Shown here piece after piece: positions 10,062-15,885 of a stretch of 20,337 bases of DNA. The DNA is from a virus, in IMG/VR virus record IMGVR_UViG_3300029797_000023, positions 1 to 20,337 of that record; one strand, written 5' to 3'. The translations under genes and the position numbers were made by a program. Numbering within the stretch: position 1 is the first letter of the stretch; the number at the start of each line of letters is the position of its first letter. The notes beneath the pieces are model-generated. The model worked only from the letters and a program-made list of their open reading frames with translations. It ran no database searches and was not told the DNA's origin.

Positions 10062-11354
10062 TCAATAAACCCTTTTTCCGGTTCTGCCAAATAAATCACA
10101 GCTATATCTTAATGCTGCCATTGCATCATCATCTTGTGTCATTGGTTCGTCTAAGAACTTACCGTTTTTATCCTGACGCCATTTCCAGTTTTTAGACTCT
10201 TTGTATGTATTGGTGCATTTAGCATTAATGTATATCTTGTTAAATGCTTTTAGCTTATCTATTTGGTCACGTACACTGCCTTGATATTTTTTGACGCCGT
10301 AAGCCATATATCCAGCATTTGACCATGTTTTAATTTGCCCGGGGTCTTCGCTATCGCATATCATTAATAGTTGTCTTTCTAATCCTAATTTATTAGCAAC
10401 AGCTATCCATTCGTTAGTAGTCTTTTCTCTGCCATATAGTTCATCAAAGACATATAGGCAGTTATCAGATTCGGCTACTGATAAAATTGCATTAGCATGA
10501 TTGAATCCAAAGTCTTGTACATATCCTTTTTTATCATAATTAACGAACTGCCAGCCCTCGGCATCAAAGTCTCTAACCTCGACATTATAAAGAATCCTGC
10601 CGCCGCGTGTTCCGTACTTACCTTTGCGGTAGACTTCATATAAGTAAGGGTCTGTTGTTTTTAGTAGTTCAATGGCGGCTTTACGTTCAGGGGTAATAAA
10701 AGCATTATCTTCATAAGTTGAGCGAACAACAAGGCATTTGATTTTTTCCTCTTTGCTCTCTACATCAACCTTTAAATATTTAACCCATACTTTTTTATCG
10801 CCATCTGCATCGGTTTCTATTACTTCATCTGCAATACTTTCAACAAACATTGCATTTGTAAAATGGTCTTCATCTACAGGGTTATATGTCAGTACCAGCT
10901 TTTGAGTATTGCCACCTCTTAATAACATGAGTAAGTCAAAGAACTGTGTCTCGTTCATATCCTCGGCTTCTTCCGCCCATATAAAGCTGACACCTTTGAT
11001 TGATTTCAATTTCTTAGGAGTATCAAAGCCCCTGAACATCAATCTATTGCCGTTCTTATGTTCTATTTGATAAGGGCTTTTTGTTACATTAAAATCATTG
11101 TCGCGCCCCATAACGCCGATGCCGTCCACGACTTCATCAAAGCAACTGCCTTTGTGTTCTGAATAAAACCGCCTGACACATACACCCCTGAAATAATCAG
11201 GCTGTGTCATAAGCCCCGGTATCCACTGACCACCTACAAAGTAAGACTTTCCGGAATCACGCCCACCATAACAAATAATTATCTTTGCGTCTGTTTGGGC
11301 TATGTGCTTGTATATTTTATTACACGCTATCTTTTTAGCATTCTCATTTTTCAT
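10062..11354 (-). CDS. terL: Terminase large subunit
   Basis: The DNA packaging motor, 430 residues from the chosen start. The ATPase domain carries Walker A GGRDSGKS (residues 30-37), Walker B FIWAEEAED (124-132) and the coupling motif TYNP (156-159). The nuclease domain has Asp281 in QDFGF, Asp334 in CDSEDPG and an acidic cluster at 408-410, matching the metal-binding acidic residues of terminase nucleases (PBSX XtmB-like type). The start is uncertain: ATG 11354 overlaps the small subunit gene by 11 bases, but in-frame ATGs at 11384, 11372 and 11369 also exist and none has a strong ribosome site, so translation may be coupled. Confidence 0.93.
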   Translation of the reverse strand: MKNENAKKIACNKIYKHIAQTDAKIIICYGGRDSGKSYFVGGQWIPGLMTQPDYFRGVCVRRFYSEHKGSCFDEVVDGIGVMGRDNDFNVTKSPYQIEHKNGNRLMFRGFDTPKKLKSIKGVSFIWAEEAEDMNETQFFDLLMLLRGGNTQKLVLTYNPVDEDHFTNAMFVESIADEVIETDADGDKKVWVKYLKVDVESKEEKIKCLVVRSTYEDNAFITPERKAAIELLKTTDPYLYEVYRKGKYGTRGGRILYNVEVRDFDAEGWQFVNYDKKGYVQDFGFNHANAILSVAESDNCLYVFDELYGREKTTNEWIAVANKLGLERQLLMICDSEDPGQIKTWSNAGYMAYGVKKYQGSVRDQIDKLKAFNKIYINAKCTNTYKESKNWKWRQDKNGKFLDEPMTQDDDAMAALRYSCDLFGRTGKRVY

Positions 11355-11892
11355 CTTCGGATTTTTCATCATCGCCGAAAACAAACATTACAGGGGCTGA
11401 TACTTCGCCGGAAAGATTGACGTTATCAATAAATATTCCTAAATGCTTACCGAGTAATTCAAGTGCTTTTACTTTATCATGTGTTTTTACTTCAATGCCG
11501 CTTTGTGTGGTCTTGATTTGCGAAATGGCTTTTTTTTGCTCCCGGGATAAATCATCTGTCACAGTCAGCGCGACGGATGCAAACTTGCTGCCGTCTTTGT
11601 GTTTCATTGAAACTACTTTTGCGTAATCACTCGCACTTGCAAAAGCTATTGCGGCAAGTTCTGCAATTACCTTATCTTGTGTTACTTCTGTGCGTCGTTC
11701 CCTGTCTTTCATGCGTTTTTGGATATACTCCTCTATCTTAACGTTTCTTAATAGGCGAGATGCAGAGACCGCGGCGGCATCATCGTTCTTAATAGATGGA
11801 TATGCAACCTTGTATGCCCTTGTACCGTTAAAGTCTATTAAATATTCATCACAGAATATTTTACGTTGTTCTGTTAGTCCGTTTTTTGTCAC
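11344..11892 (-). CDS. terS: Terminase small subunit
   Basis: A 182-residue protein with the layout of the XtmA-type small terminase family: the N-terminal LTEQRKIFCDEYLIDFNGTRA and ASRLLRNVKIEEYI helices form the DNA-binding HTH, followed by an Ala-rich middle and a KVKALELLGKHLGIF segment, then an acidic C terminus. It recognises phage DNA and hands it to the large subunit. I choose GTG 11892 (TKNGLTEQ) because AAGGTGG lies five bases upstream; an in-frame GTG at 11901 overlaps that ribosome site. Confidence 0.85.
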   Translation of the reverse strand: MTKNGLTEQRKIFCDEYLIDFNGTRAYKVAYPSIKNDDAAAVSASRLLRNVKIEEYIQKRMKDRERRTEVTQDKVIAELAAIAFASASDYAKVVSMKHKDGSKFASVALTVTDDLSREQKKAISQIKTTQSGIEVKTHDKVKALELLGKHLGIFIDNVNLSGEVSAPVMFVFGDDEKSEDEK

Positions 11893-11923
11893 ACATTCCA
11901 CCTTCTTTCTGTTTTTATTCGTT

Positions 11924-12244
11924 TTATACTCTTATAATCCATGTCATGTGATAAGCTATAATTATAAGTTCAAATATCATATATCCCATTACTACCCTGT
12001 TTATAGCTTTATGTGGTTTTCTCTGTGCTGCATACCATATTGATAATGATAATGATATAAAAGCAAATATTAAAATTCTTAGTGTTACACCCATTGTGAA
12101 GGGCATGTCTTTTATAATACTTATCATAAAAGGGTTTACTTCCTGTATTACTTGATAAATATTTTGTCCAATGTAGGTAAGTATATAATCAAGTACACCA
12201 CATATAAATATTATTATTAACATTGATATTAGTTTCTTTTTCAT
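11924..12244 (-). CDS. Small integral membrane protein (DUF5658-like)
   Basis: A 106-residue protein with three hydrophobic segments: residues about 4-27 (ISMLIIIFICGVLDYILTYI), 50-70 (MGVTLRILIFAFISLSLSIW) and 82-104 (NRVVMGYMIFELIIIAYHMT). The early LDYxLTYxG and EVNPFM signatures resemble the DUF5658 family, whose function is unknown. It lies alone between an RNA-like element and the terminase genes. ATG 12244 has AGGTGA seven bases upstream. It may be an accessory gene affecting the host envelope rather than a packaging gene. Confidence 0.7.
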   Translation of the reverse strand: MKKKLISMLIIIFICGVLDYILTYIGQNIYQVIQEVNPFMISIIKDMPFTMGVTLRILIFAFISLSLSIWYAAQRKPHKAINRVVMGYMIFELIIIAYHMTWIIRV

Positions 12245-12268: not shown

Positions 12269-12435
12269 TGGCTTAGGCAGGGATTTGTTCAATCAGATTT
12301 TATGATTTGTATGTCACCCTGCATGATACACGTTTAATCGTTTCACAGCTTCGACATGTCTGCCTACTTGGGAACATCTTCCCCTTCTGCTTGTATCTAA
12401 CGATAATAGCGTCTACCTATTCCGCCACTAAGCCA
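12269..12435 (-). ncRNA. tRNA-Leu-like, enlarged cloverleaf RNA candidate
   Basis: The minus strand from 12435 reads TGGCTTAG TGGCGGAATAGGTAGACGC, the acceptor strand and D-arm of a tRNA-Leu. The 3' end CTAAGCCA (12269-12276) pairs perfectly with the 5' end. Immediately inside is a 6-bp stem GCAGGG / CCCUGC (12317-12322 / 12277-12282) in the T-arm position. A 6-bp stem GAUACA / UGUAUC (12392-12397 / 12325-12330) sits where an anticodon arm would be and encloses a hairpin GGGAA-GAUG-UUCCC (12370-12383), like a class II variable arm. All four stems nest as a cloverleaf. There is no normal anticodon arm, the T-like loop is 34 bases, and CCA is not encoded. It may be a tRNA mimic, a tRNA with insertions, or a new RNA family. 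Confidence 0.55.
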
Positions 12436-12474: not shown

Positions 12475-12618
12475 TTATTCAAACCTTCCGTTTTTGCCTT
12501 GCAACTCTGCCCTTGCCTTATCATGTGTTTTTAGCATAGCTTGTACTATTTCTCTGCGTAATGGTTCTGCTAAGTCTGAATCTCGCCTATCTACATATTT
12601 TTCAAGTTCTTGTGACAT
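12475..12618 (-). CDS. 47-residue charged protein
   Basis: ATG 12618 to TAA 12475 encodes a 47-residue helical protein (MSQELEKYVDRRDSDL...) rich in Glu, Arg and Lys and ending GKNGRFE. AAGAAGGG lies seven or eight bases upstream and the gene begins 15 bases after the phosphoesterase stop. No family is recognised. Codon use and the ribosome site look normal for this genome, so I consider it real. Confidence 0.6.
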   Translation of the reverse strand: MSQELEKYVDRRDSDLAEPLRREIVQAMLKTHDKARAELQGKNGRFE

Positions 12619-14939: not shown

Positions 14940-15401
14940 TTATTGCTCCTTATTTAATTTATCAAGTGCCTCTCTTTTATATCGGTTAGTTTGTGCCACA
15001 GAATATGATACCGCTTTAGCTGTTGCGAATATGCTCAATCCTTCGATATAGAAAAACTTCAATACTTGATGTTCGGTTTTTTTGATTTTGCCGTTATTAT
15101 AATGCTTTCGGAGTTCGTCACCACATTTTATAATTTCCTCATTAAGCTGTAAAATCTCATTACTTAATCGGATTCTATCGTTGCGGTATTTCTTCAAGAT
15201 TTCATCTGCTTTGATCGCCTTTTCACCTGTCGGGTCTGAATCTGAAAAGTCAGGCTGCGAACTTCCGGACGTATCAATTATATTGCTTTTGGCGTCTCTG
15301 ACAGCTTCAATCTTGTCTTTAATCATTCGCAGTTCAGCCGTTGCAGCGTTCAAGTCTCGTGCGGAATGGCGAATTTTTTCAAGTCTGCTTTGGAATCTCA
15401 T
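14940..15401 (-). CDS. Sigma-70 region 4-like late regulator (RinA/ArpU-like)
   Basis: A 153-residue protein. The N-terminal 100 residues are coiled coil (RLEKIRHSARDLNAA, ILKKYRNDRIRLSNEILQL) with a Ser/Asp-rich break. The C-terminal 45 residues carry an HTH of the region 4 type (EHQVLKFFYIEGLSIFATA, then SVAQTNRYKREALDKL). This layout is that of phage late transcription regulators located before terminase genes. I prefer ATG 15401; a GTG at 15413, overlapping the previous stop, is possible. It may act on a promoter such as the one at 13559-13587, which is inference. Confidence 0.7.
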   Translation of the reverse strand: MRFQSRLEKIRHSARDLNAATAELRMIKDKIEAVRDAKSNIIDTSGSSQPDFSDSDPTGEKAIKADEILKKYRNDRIRLSNEILQLNEEIIKCGDELRKHYNNGKIKKTEHQVLKFFYIEGLSIFATAKAVSYSVAQTNRYKREALDKLNKEQ

Positions 15402-15405
15402 ATTT

Positions 15406-15885
15406 CTACTCACTCTCTAGTAGTTCAGGGTTTTCTAATATGTTGCCAATTACTTCTAAATCATTATACTCAACAATGTTTAGGTCAGACGTCAAACAGT
15501 GTCTGTTTCTTAAATTAATACCCCCACTTATAATAAGGTCGAATGATACATACATATTTTCTTTTGTGTATGCATGTCTTCTAAATGGAATCTTATTTTT
15601 TACAATATTATTTTCATATATTTCTTCTCCATTCTTGTCATTCAATCCTGTCCACTGTCCTACTGTTTGTGGGATGACTGGCACGTGTTCTATTTGTTTA
15701 TAATGTCCATCTCTTGTATCCCATTCGTGGAATACTTGAATAGTATCGGCTATATTCCCTTGGTCTATTTGCTCATATCCGTATCTGCCATACACCCATC
15801 TACCCTTAATCTTTTTACCGTCAATGTAGATAGTTTTATCGCCATTCTCATCCTTTGTAAAGCCTCTGAATTTTATTTCTCTCAT
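15406..15885 (-). CDS. YopX-family protein
   Basis: A 159-residue protein with the clear YopX signature: MREIKFRGFTKDENG at the start, GRWVYGRYGY, TVGQWTGLNDKNGEEIYEN in the middle and EVIGNILENPELL at the end. The family is a common phage and prophage accessory protein of unknown function. ATG 15885 has GAAAGGAAG upstream; a TTG-initiated extension to 15921 would overlap the membrane micro-ORF and lacks a site. Confidence 0.85.
   Translation of the reverse strand: MREIKFRGFTKDENGDKTIYIDGKKIKGRWVYGRYGYEQIDQGNIADTIQVFHEWDTRDGHYKQIEHVPVIPQTVGQWTGLNDKNGEEIYENNIVKNKIPFRRHAYTKENMYVSFDLIISGGINLRNRHCLTSDLNIVEYNDLEVIGNILENPELLESE

Follow-up and report, generated by a model that had tools for sequence, protein, structure and literature searches.

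A family of tRNA-elbow RNAs with exchangeable middle domains in phages and other mobile elements of Bacillota

The tRNA elbow is put to non-decoding use in plant mitochondrial t-elements, viral tRNA-like structures and the recombinant tRNA scaffold, with foreign RNA at the position of the anticodon. GOLLD and ROOL are large structured RNAs of Bacillota phages, sometimes located beside tRNAs, and HK022 put and the EAR element are structured RNAs heading long operons. The element described here is, judging from its sequence, a gene for a non-coding RNA, carried by phages and other mobile elements of Bacillota. With tRNA-Leu (RF00005) it shares the 5′ part, the D-arm, U8, A14, A15, G18, G19, U48, U54, C56 and A58, but it differs by A17, G55, a 13-bp stack and inserts of 23–232 nt. 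tmRNA (RF00023) likewise has tRNA-like ends and pseudoknots between the D-arm and the T-arm, whereas the present family has a D-arm of the tRNA-Leu type and neither a message or tag nor CCA. GOLLD and ROOL are much larger than the family members and are not built on a tRNA elbow; put consists of simple hairpins and EAR has another fold, neither with tRNA-like parts. The t-elements, viral tRNA-like structures and tRNA scaffold belong to other hosts and have other origins, the likeness noted here being one of description. No known tRNA-like family unites such a frame, such hosts and exchangeable cassettes; a strict reader might count the family among tRNA-like RNAs, its tRNA ancestry being clear.

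Full-text searches of open-access papers found no description of the element. The 2018 re-annotation of SPP1 does not mention tRNA and ascribes non-coding segments mostly to promoters and terminators (PMC6316719), and the main text of the E. faecalis/E. faecium RNA map (PMC7724050) offers nothing usable on the element. RNA annotation is absent from all family members inspected, including those of SPP1, phi3T-like, Listeria and Lactobacillus phages, so that a widespread RNA family stands unannotated in classical model phages.

Structure of the RNA in the window

The window, i.e. the whole stretch of DNA analysed, comprises the complete virus record IMGVR_UViG_3300029797_000023 (20,337 bp). An initial annotation had placed a tRNA-Leu-like RNA with an enlarged cloverleaf at 12435–12269, and the sequence and stems there are as it described. 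The RNA lies in a 231-nt gap amid co-directional phage genes ending in terS and terL, and is composed as follows.

12269–12435, minus strand: tRNA-elbow RNA of the split T-loop class, flanked by ORFs of 48 aa (end near 12476) and 106 aa (start at 12244)
12428–12434, minus strand: closing (acceptor-like) stem, 5′ strand GGCUUAG; 7/7 pairs, covariation in the family
12409–12427, minus strand: U8-G9 and D-arm GCGGAAUAGGUAGACGC with A17, a constant block of 19 nt; same letters in the members found
12399–12404, minus strand: pseudoknot strand a, AUCGUU; partner at 12337–12342
12392–12397, minus strand: pseudoknot strand b, GAUACA; partner at 12325–12330
12370–12383, minus strand: hairpin GGGAA-GAUG-UUCCC within the cassette; from folding, peculiar to the window cassette
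12337–12342, minus strand: pseudoknot strand a′, AACGAU; pairs with strand a
12325–12330, minus strand: pseudoknot strand b′, UGUAUC; pairs with strand b
12323–12324, minus strand: AU preceding the T-stem (U48, the Levitt partner of A15 in tRNA); AT in 107/121 members
12317–12322, minus strand: T-stem, 5′ strand GCAGGG, 6 bp; 6/6 pairs with CCCUGC
12283–12316, minus strand: T-loop UG...CAAAU split by an insert; hairpin AAUCA (12307–12303)/UGAUU (12295–12291)
12277–12282, minus strand: T-stem, 3′ strand CCCUGC; continues directly into the closing stem
12270–12276, minus strand: closing stem, 3′ strand CUAAGCC; pairs 7/7 with 12434–12428, covariation in the family

The UG corresponds to 12427–12426 and the D-arm to 12425–12409, and position 12269 is A on the minus strand. 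T-stem and closing stem together form a stack of 13 bp, compared with 12 in tRNA. The initial annotation read the stems as nested in cloverleaf order, but GAUACA/UGUAUC forms an H-type pseudoknot with AUCGUU/AACGAU. The T-like loop of 34 bases is present as described, and is really the family T-loop UG-CAAAU interrupted by a hairpin insert; the split site, UGAC...CAAAU, is the same as in other split-loop members. The proposal of a tRNA with two insertions thus proved apt, one being located at the anticodon region and the other in the T-loop, with the frame of the cloverleaf kept and the anticodon region replaced by a larger domain.

Folding of the window RNA gave a minimum free energy of −47.7 kcal/mol (z = −3.08 against 200 shuffles). 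By chance, the 19-mer with the D-arm is expected 1e−8 times per window; given the D-arm, closing stem and T-stem arise in 5.7% of shuffles, and in 5e−5 when the TG...CAAAT loop is included. The pair score of the a/b pseudoknot is 28, a value attained by 0.6% of swapped controls. ARAGORN reported no genes in the window, and no Rfam 15 family reached its gathering score over the window RNA or the other members scanned. OTKONC and Prevotella-2 were considered as Rfam matches, but their 15 bits are at chance level, and a scan on their AGUAG/CGUGUA motifs produced chance matches only. Two DNA scans specific for the window cassette returned nothing or chance matches only, the RNA is absent beside homologues of the neighbouring genes (terS, L001–L014; metallophosphatase, L015), and a terL search of genome contigs yielded no relatives.

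Family members and covariation of the constant frame

Relatives were recovered by scanning for the constant frame. The first productive scan, for the D-arm followed 105–135 nt on by CAAATCC, produced at least 119 loci, most of which are RNAs of the same kind as in the window once true tRNA-Leu genes are set aside. Later scans added the split-loop class and 65 distinct short members, and a scan of bacterial genomes (84,980 prokaryote species genomes) gave 26 loci, all 26 in Bacillota. An exact search with the 19-mer among annotated phages and plasmids found it in SPP1, phi3T, Listeria, Lactobacillus, Weissella, Enterococcus and other phages and in Enterococcus plasmids; some further matches, namely the inspected cases from a Synechococcus phage, Cetobacterium and Microbacterium, are true tRNA-Leu genes. 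In total, phages, prophages and plasmids yielded about 190 distinct RNAs, almost all of them from Bacillota.

The frame consists of a 7-bp closing stem of any sequence, U8, the tRNA-Leu D-arm UGGCGGAAUAGGUAGACGC, AU, a 6-bp T-stem and the loop UGCAAAU. From the 5′ end, the order is closing stem, U8-G9, D-arm, a linker with a and b, the variable domain, a′, b′, AU, T-arm and closing strand. The window RNA has all of these: the 19-nt D block, AU, a 6-bp T-stem with UG(..)CAAAU, a contiguous 7-bp closing stem and a pseudoknot before AU. Diverged D-arms are present in L152 (UGGCGAAAUAGGUAACCGC) and L308 (UGGCUGAAUAGAAGUCGC). Conservation of the D-arm and of CAAAT/TGCAAAT is partly circular, because the scans imposed those letters, whereas the closing stem and the outer four T-stem pairs were imposed by no scan. 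Scans with N at position 17 also left A17 and G55 free, and in these A17 is found in 76 of 104 distinct loci, mostly together with G55; U55 occurs in true tRNA-Leu genes and in two G17 members.

Pairing was tested with explicit registers and shuffles instead of a covariance model, as Infernal copes poorly with a variable insert of this size. At one register, 73 of the 76 A17 loci have at least 6/7 closing-stem pairs, compared with 0–5 at eight other registers. The same number of pairs is reached in 124 of 131 distinct unsplit frames, with all four Watson-Crick pairs seen. Across 44 frames, 98.2% of the cells are paired versus 71.8% in shuffles, two-sided changes number 194 versus 51.9, and the covariation score is 0.716 versus 0.174 in shuffles (0/500) and 0.07–0.17 when the frames are slid. 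Closing-stem covariation across the family therefore means that selection acts on the RNA as a whole, and we are highly confident that the family and its fold are real. The initial annotation had proposed a covariation search and had named absence of covariation, decay of the stems in homologs and a match to an Rfam family as outcomes that would speak against it; covariation is strong in the relatives and none of the three was observed.

The tRNA-Leu ancestry suggested from the outset is borne out by the 5′ part, D-arm, closing stem, T-arm and elbow contacts: U8-A14, A15-U48, U54-A58 and G19-C56 can form, and G18-U55 cannot. Nevertheless, to judge by its predicted structure, the element is a tRNA-elbow RNA and neither a tRNA nor a tmRNA. 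Even the minimal member L222 (~80 nt) scores 19 bits on the tRNA model, under the 29-bit cut-off. No member has an anticodon arm with a 7-nt loop and a Leu anticodon, in agreement with the lack of a recognisable anticodon loop noted for the window; the middle holds a pseudoknot or other hairpins. Position 73 is unconserved (A27 T25 C11 G10), CCA is encoded in none of 73 members, and the closing stem tends to extend outwards, with −1:73 pairs in 82 of 116 members versus 48 expected and −2:74 pairs in 69 versus 48. Together with the missing anticodon arm, these features argue against charging, CCA addition and precise maturation by RNase P, and hence against the earlier suggestion of a matured, CCA-tailed tRNA mimic. 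The likening to tmRNA fares no better: the tmRNA covariance model matched no member scanned, and members as short as 75–85 nt, like those with middles of 23–46 nt, have no space for a message. A tRNA with a group I intron, for which the window RNA had already been judged too short, can also be discarded, as the intron core P3–P8 takes at least ~200 nt, the inserts are mostly 23–126 nt and there is no Rfam intron match.

Several other RNAs occur near family members. In phiSHEF16, a real phage tmRNA (L219:2644-2994; 130 bits in Rfam), unannotated in the record, abuts the RNA in the tRNA array. The Listeria sRNA rliG (RF02415) lies directly upstream of a member in Listeria phages (L152:5849-5991, L044:3553-3690), and its model overlaps the first 41–42 nt of the Listeria members. 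We rejected rliG as evidence for their expression, since it is a different RNA and the true similarity stops short of the closing stem. SPP1, Enterococcus pheromone plasmids and Lactobacillus phage Lenus have, after the RNA, a second kind of small tRNA-like element (L215:3541-3588 in SPP1, L227:2438-2510, L218 after 3100); its closing stem is perfect and its T-arm canonical (GGUUCAAUUCC or GGUUCGAUUCC). Finally, L035, L059, L075, L127 and L134 are separate enlarged tRNA-Leu-like RNAs with U17, a canonical UUCAAAU T-loop and a 12-bp stack.

Middle domains and their exchange between loci

In place of the anticodon and variable region, family members carry a domain of 23 (L231) to 232 nt (L227), usually pseudoknotted. 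The H-type pseudoknot topology is conserved, with a mean score of 16.7 versus 9.7 (standard deviation of replicate means 0.9) in controls in which 3′ halves were swapped between members. Split-loop members have an inserted hairpin, up to ~100 nt long and short in the window, between UGAC and CAAAU of the T-loop. Some middles include a canonical T-arm, GGUUCGAAUCC, and that of L113 (around 2190–2300) contains a nearly complete second tRNA-like structure, including a D-arm, an anticodon-like hairpin and a T-like arm. L042, L101 and L124 have a long imperfect core in common, UUCGUG...CACGUU, and differ in their closing stems.

Related loci may carry unrelated cassettes. The flanks of L211 match those of L187, L192 and L199 at 94–98% identity and its closing stem is almost the same as theirs, while the middle and the T-loop insert are unrelated; in L220 (Sha1) and L230, too, unrelated middles lie between related flanks (85% and 75%). 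In the opposite direction, 26 pairs combine similar middles with unrelated flanks and differing closing stems. In one such comparison, middles 98.7% identical are found in the lytic Enterococcus phage phiSHEF16 (L219) and in a conjugative plasmid of E. faecalis strain ES-11 (L226), with closing stems that differ by compensated changes (GUCACUG/CAGUGAC and AUCGCUG/CAGCGAU). Pheromone plasmids have two different middles at one site, between sea1/prgA and the aggregation-substance gene, and the element has been lost from other plasmids. In some Enterococcus plasmids (L309:890-950, compared with L308), a deletion between short GACATGA repeats has taken out the RNA together with the greater part of the second tRNA-like element. 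Since exchange is seen in both directions, frame and cassette have had separate histories. Recombination through the constant arms, in the absence of selection, may be enough to account for this exchange.

Genomic context and candidate functions

The genes relevant to the context of the window RNA are the following.

11344–11901, minus strand: terminase small subunit, downstream (phrog_51)
10062–11384, minus strand: terminase large subunit, downstream (phrog_3717)
14940–15413, minus strand: late transcription regulator, upstream (phrog_36)

The position upstream of the terminase genes given in the initial annotation is therefore right, and it recurs in the family: in 39 of 65 contigs a large terminase (phrog_2) starts at most 5 kb downstream on the same strand (median 2.4 kb), versus 8.9 expected under a same-strand null. 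A gene of the late-regulator kind also precedes the RNA in relatives, with late activators just upstream in many. Other copies are located elsewhere, between genes 9 and 11 in SPP1, after a yonN-like gene in phi3T, in tRNA arrays including those of Enterococcus phages, and on conjugative plasmids; some genomes have two. By a naive ORF count, both nearest large ORFs are on the strand of the RNA in 35 of 75 loci and at least 21 loci have one on the opposite strand; in L132 the RNA is antisense to the adjacent primase gene. Among 129 adjacent ORFs, no protein family is enriched that might be a cognate partner. Directly after the window RNA lies a membrane-like ORF of 106 aa (11924–12244, minus strand) without a PHROG match, whose protein may be the source of a DUF5658 match in a pooled Pfam scan. 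A link to the PrgU/IGR target of pCF10 was dismissed, as this target is near PQ and not between prgA and prgB (PMC8265641).

Our preferred reading is that the element is a tRNA-elbow scaffold with an exchangeable effector cassette, most likely acting in trans; for this statement as a whole we estimate a probability of about 0.45. The elbow would serve either as a compact chassis resistant to nucleases, a natural 'tRNA scaffold', or as a handle by which a host elbow-binding factor takes hold, and the effector contacting a host or phage target would be the cassette. Cassettes would be traded between otherwise conserved loci because this target varies from case to case. The RNA would be produced together with the late operon and, in other contexts, from a unit of its own. 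Action in trans is favoured because cassettes cross between unrelated loci and the RNA has no accompanying gene. The lack of a constant partner, the sites in tRNA clusters, the antisense copy in L132 and the double copies count for a stand-alone gene. Against an effector, cassettes of 23–27 nt give it little room, the searches turned up no homologue of the window cassette, and proximity to the terminase genes would fit a role in cis as well. More tentatively, the family might be a plug-in RNA system, in which recombination through the constant arms places interchangeable effector cassettes in a constant elbow chassis, each for a different host target such as a defence or regulatory protein, by analogy with the swapping of anti-defence genes at a fixed locus, here at the level of RNA. 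The family shows a tRNA elbow put to new use as a chassis for exchangeable RNA domains, an unusual modular evolution within one RNA gene, and, if cassettes do target host factors, it would represent an RNA branch of phage–host conflict. With members in SPP1 and phi3T, function is directly testable in Bacillus subtilis.

The main rival, which we regard as somewhat unlikely, is a nascent-RNA element acting in cis where long polycistronic operons begin (those of late genes, transfer genes or tRNA arrays). It would dock on RNA polymerase or a Nus-type complex and allow terminator read-through, as HK022 put and EAR do, or protect the long mRNA. The excess just upstream of terS/terL, the position after late activators, the site between sea1/prgA and the aggregation-substance gene and the presence in long untranslated tRNA arrays of Enterococcus phages all agree with such a role, which would bear on transcription of long late operons in Gram-positive phages. 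However, the copy in L132, at least, runs antisense to the neighbouring gene, unrelated operons have cassettes in common, many copies are far from the head of a late operon, and the fold has no likeness to put or EAR.

Less probable is a processing signal whose elbow RNase P and RNase Z would recognise, cutting the polycistronic transcript, the insert being a tolerated spacer, by analogy with mitochondrial tRNA punctuation or plant t-elements. The elbow contacts that can form and the usual co-directionality of the RNA with its flanking genes are consistent with this, but continuation of the closing stem beyond 73 disfavours cleavage at +1, the unconserved 73, missing CCA, G55 and A17 are unlike tRNA, and a pseudoknot would not persist in a mere spacer. 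We consider it more improbable still that the D-arm-to-T-arm middle is a selfish cassette, mobile among loci with a palindromic closing stem and of no benefit to its carrier: the differing histories of cassettes and flanks in both directions would be expected of it, but neither a target-site pattern nor an associated recombinase is seen, and family-wide covariation of the closing stem points to selection on the whole RNA. A packaging RNA or signal like phi29 pRNA, as the initial annotation had also envisaged, was suggested by closeness to the terminase genes and by length (167 versus 174 nt), but it is largely refuted by the distribution, as the RNA lacks the strict link to a packaging motor, being found beside unrelated terminases, far from the terminase in SPP1, in tRNA clusters and on conjugative plasmids.

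Two of the phages with the RNA (G052 and G067; loci L233 and L250) have large terminase frames with 10–12 in-frame TAG codons, which suggests that TAG-recoded phages carry it too.
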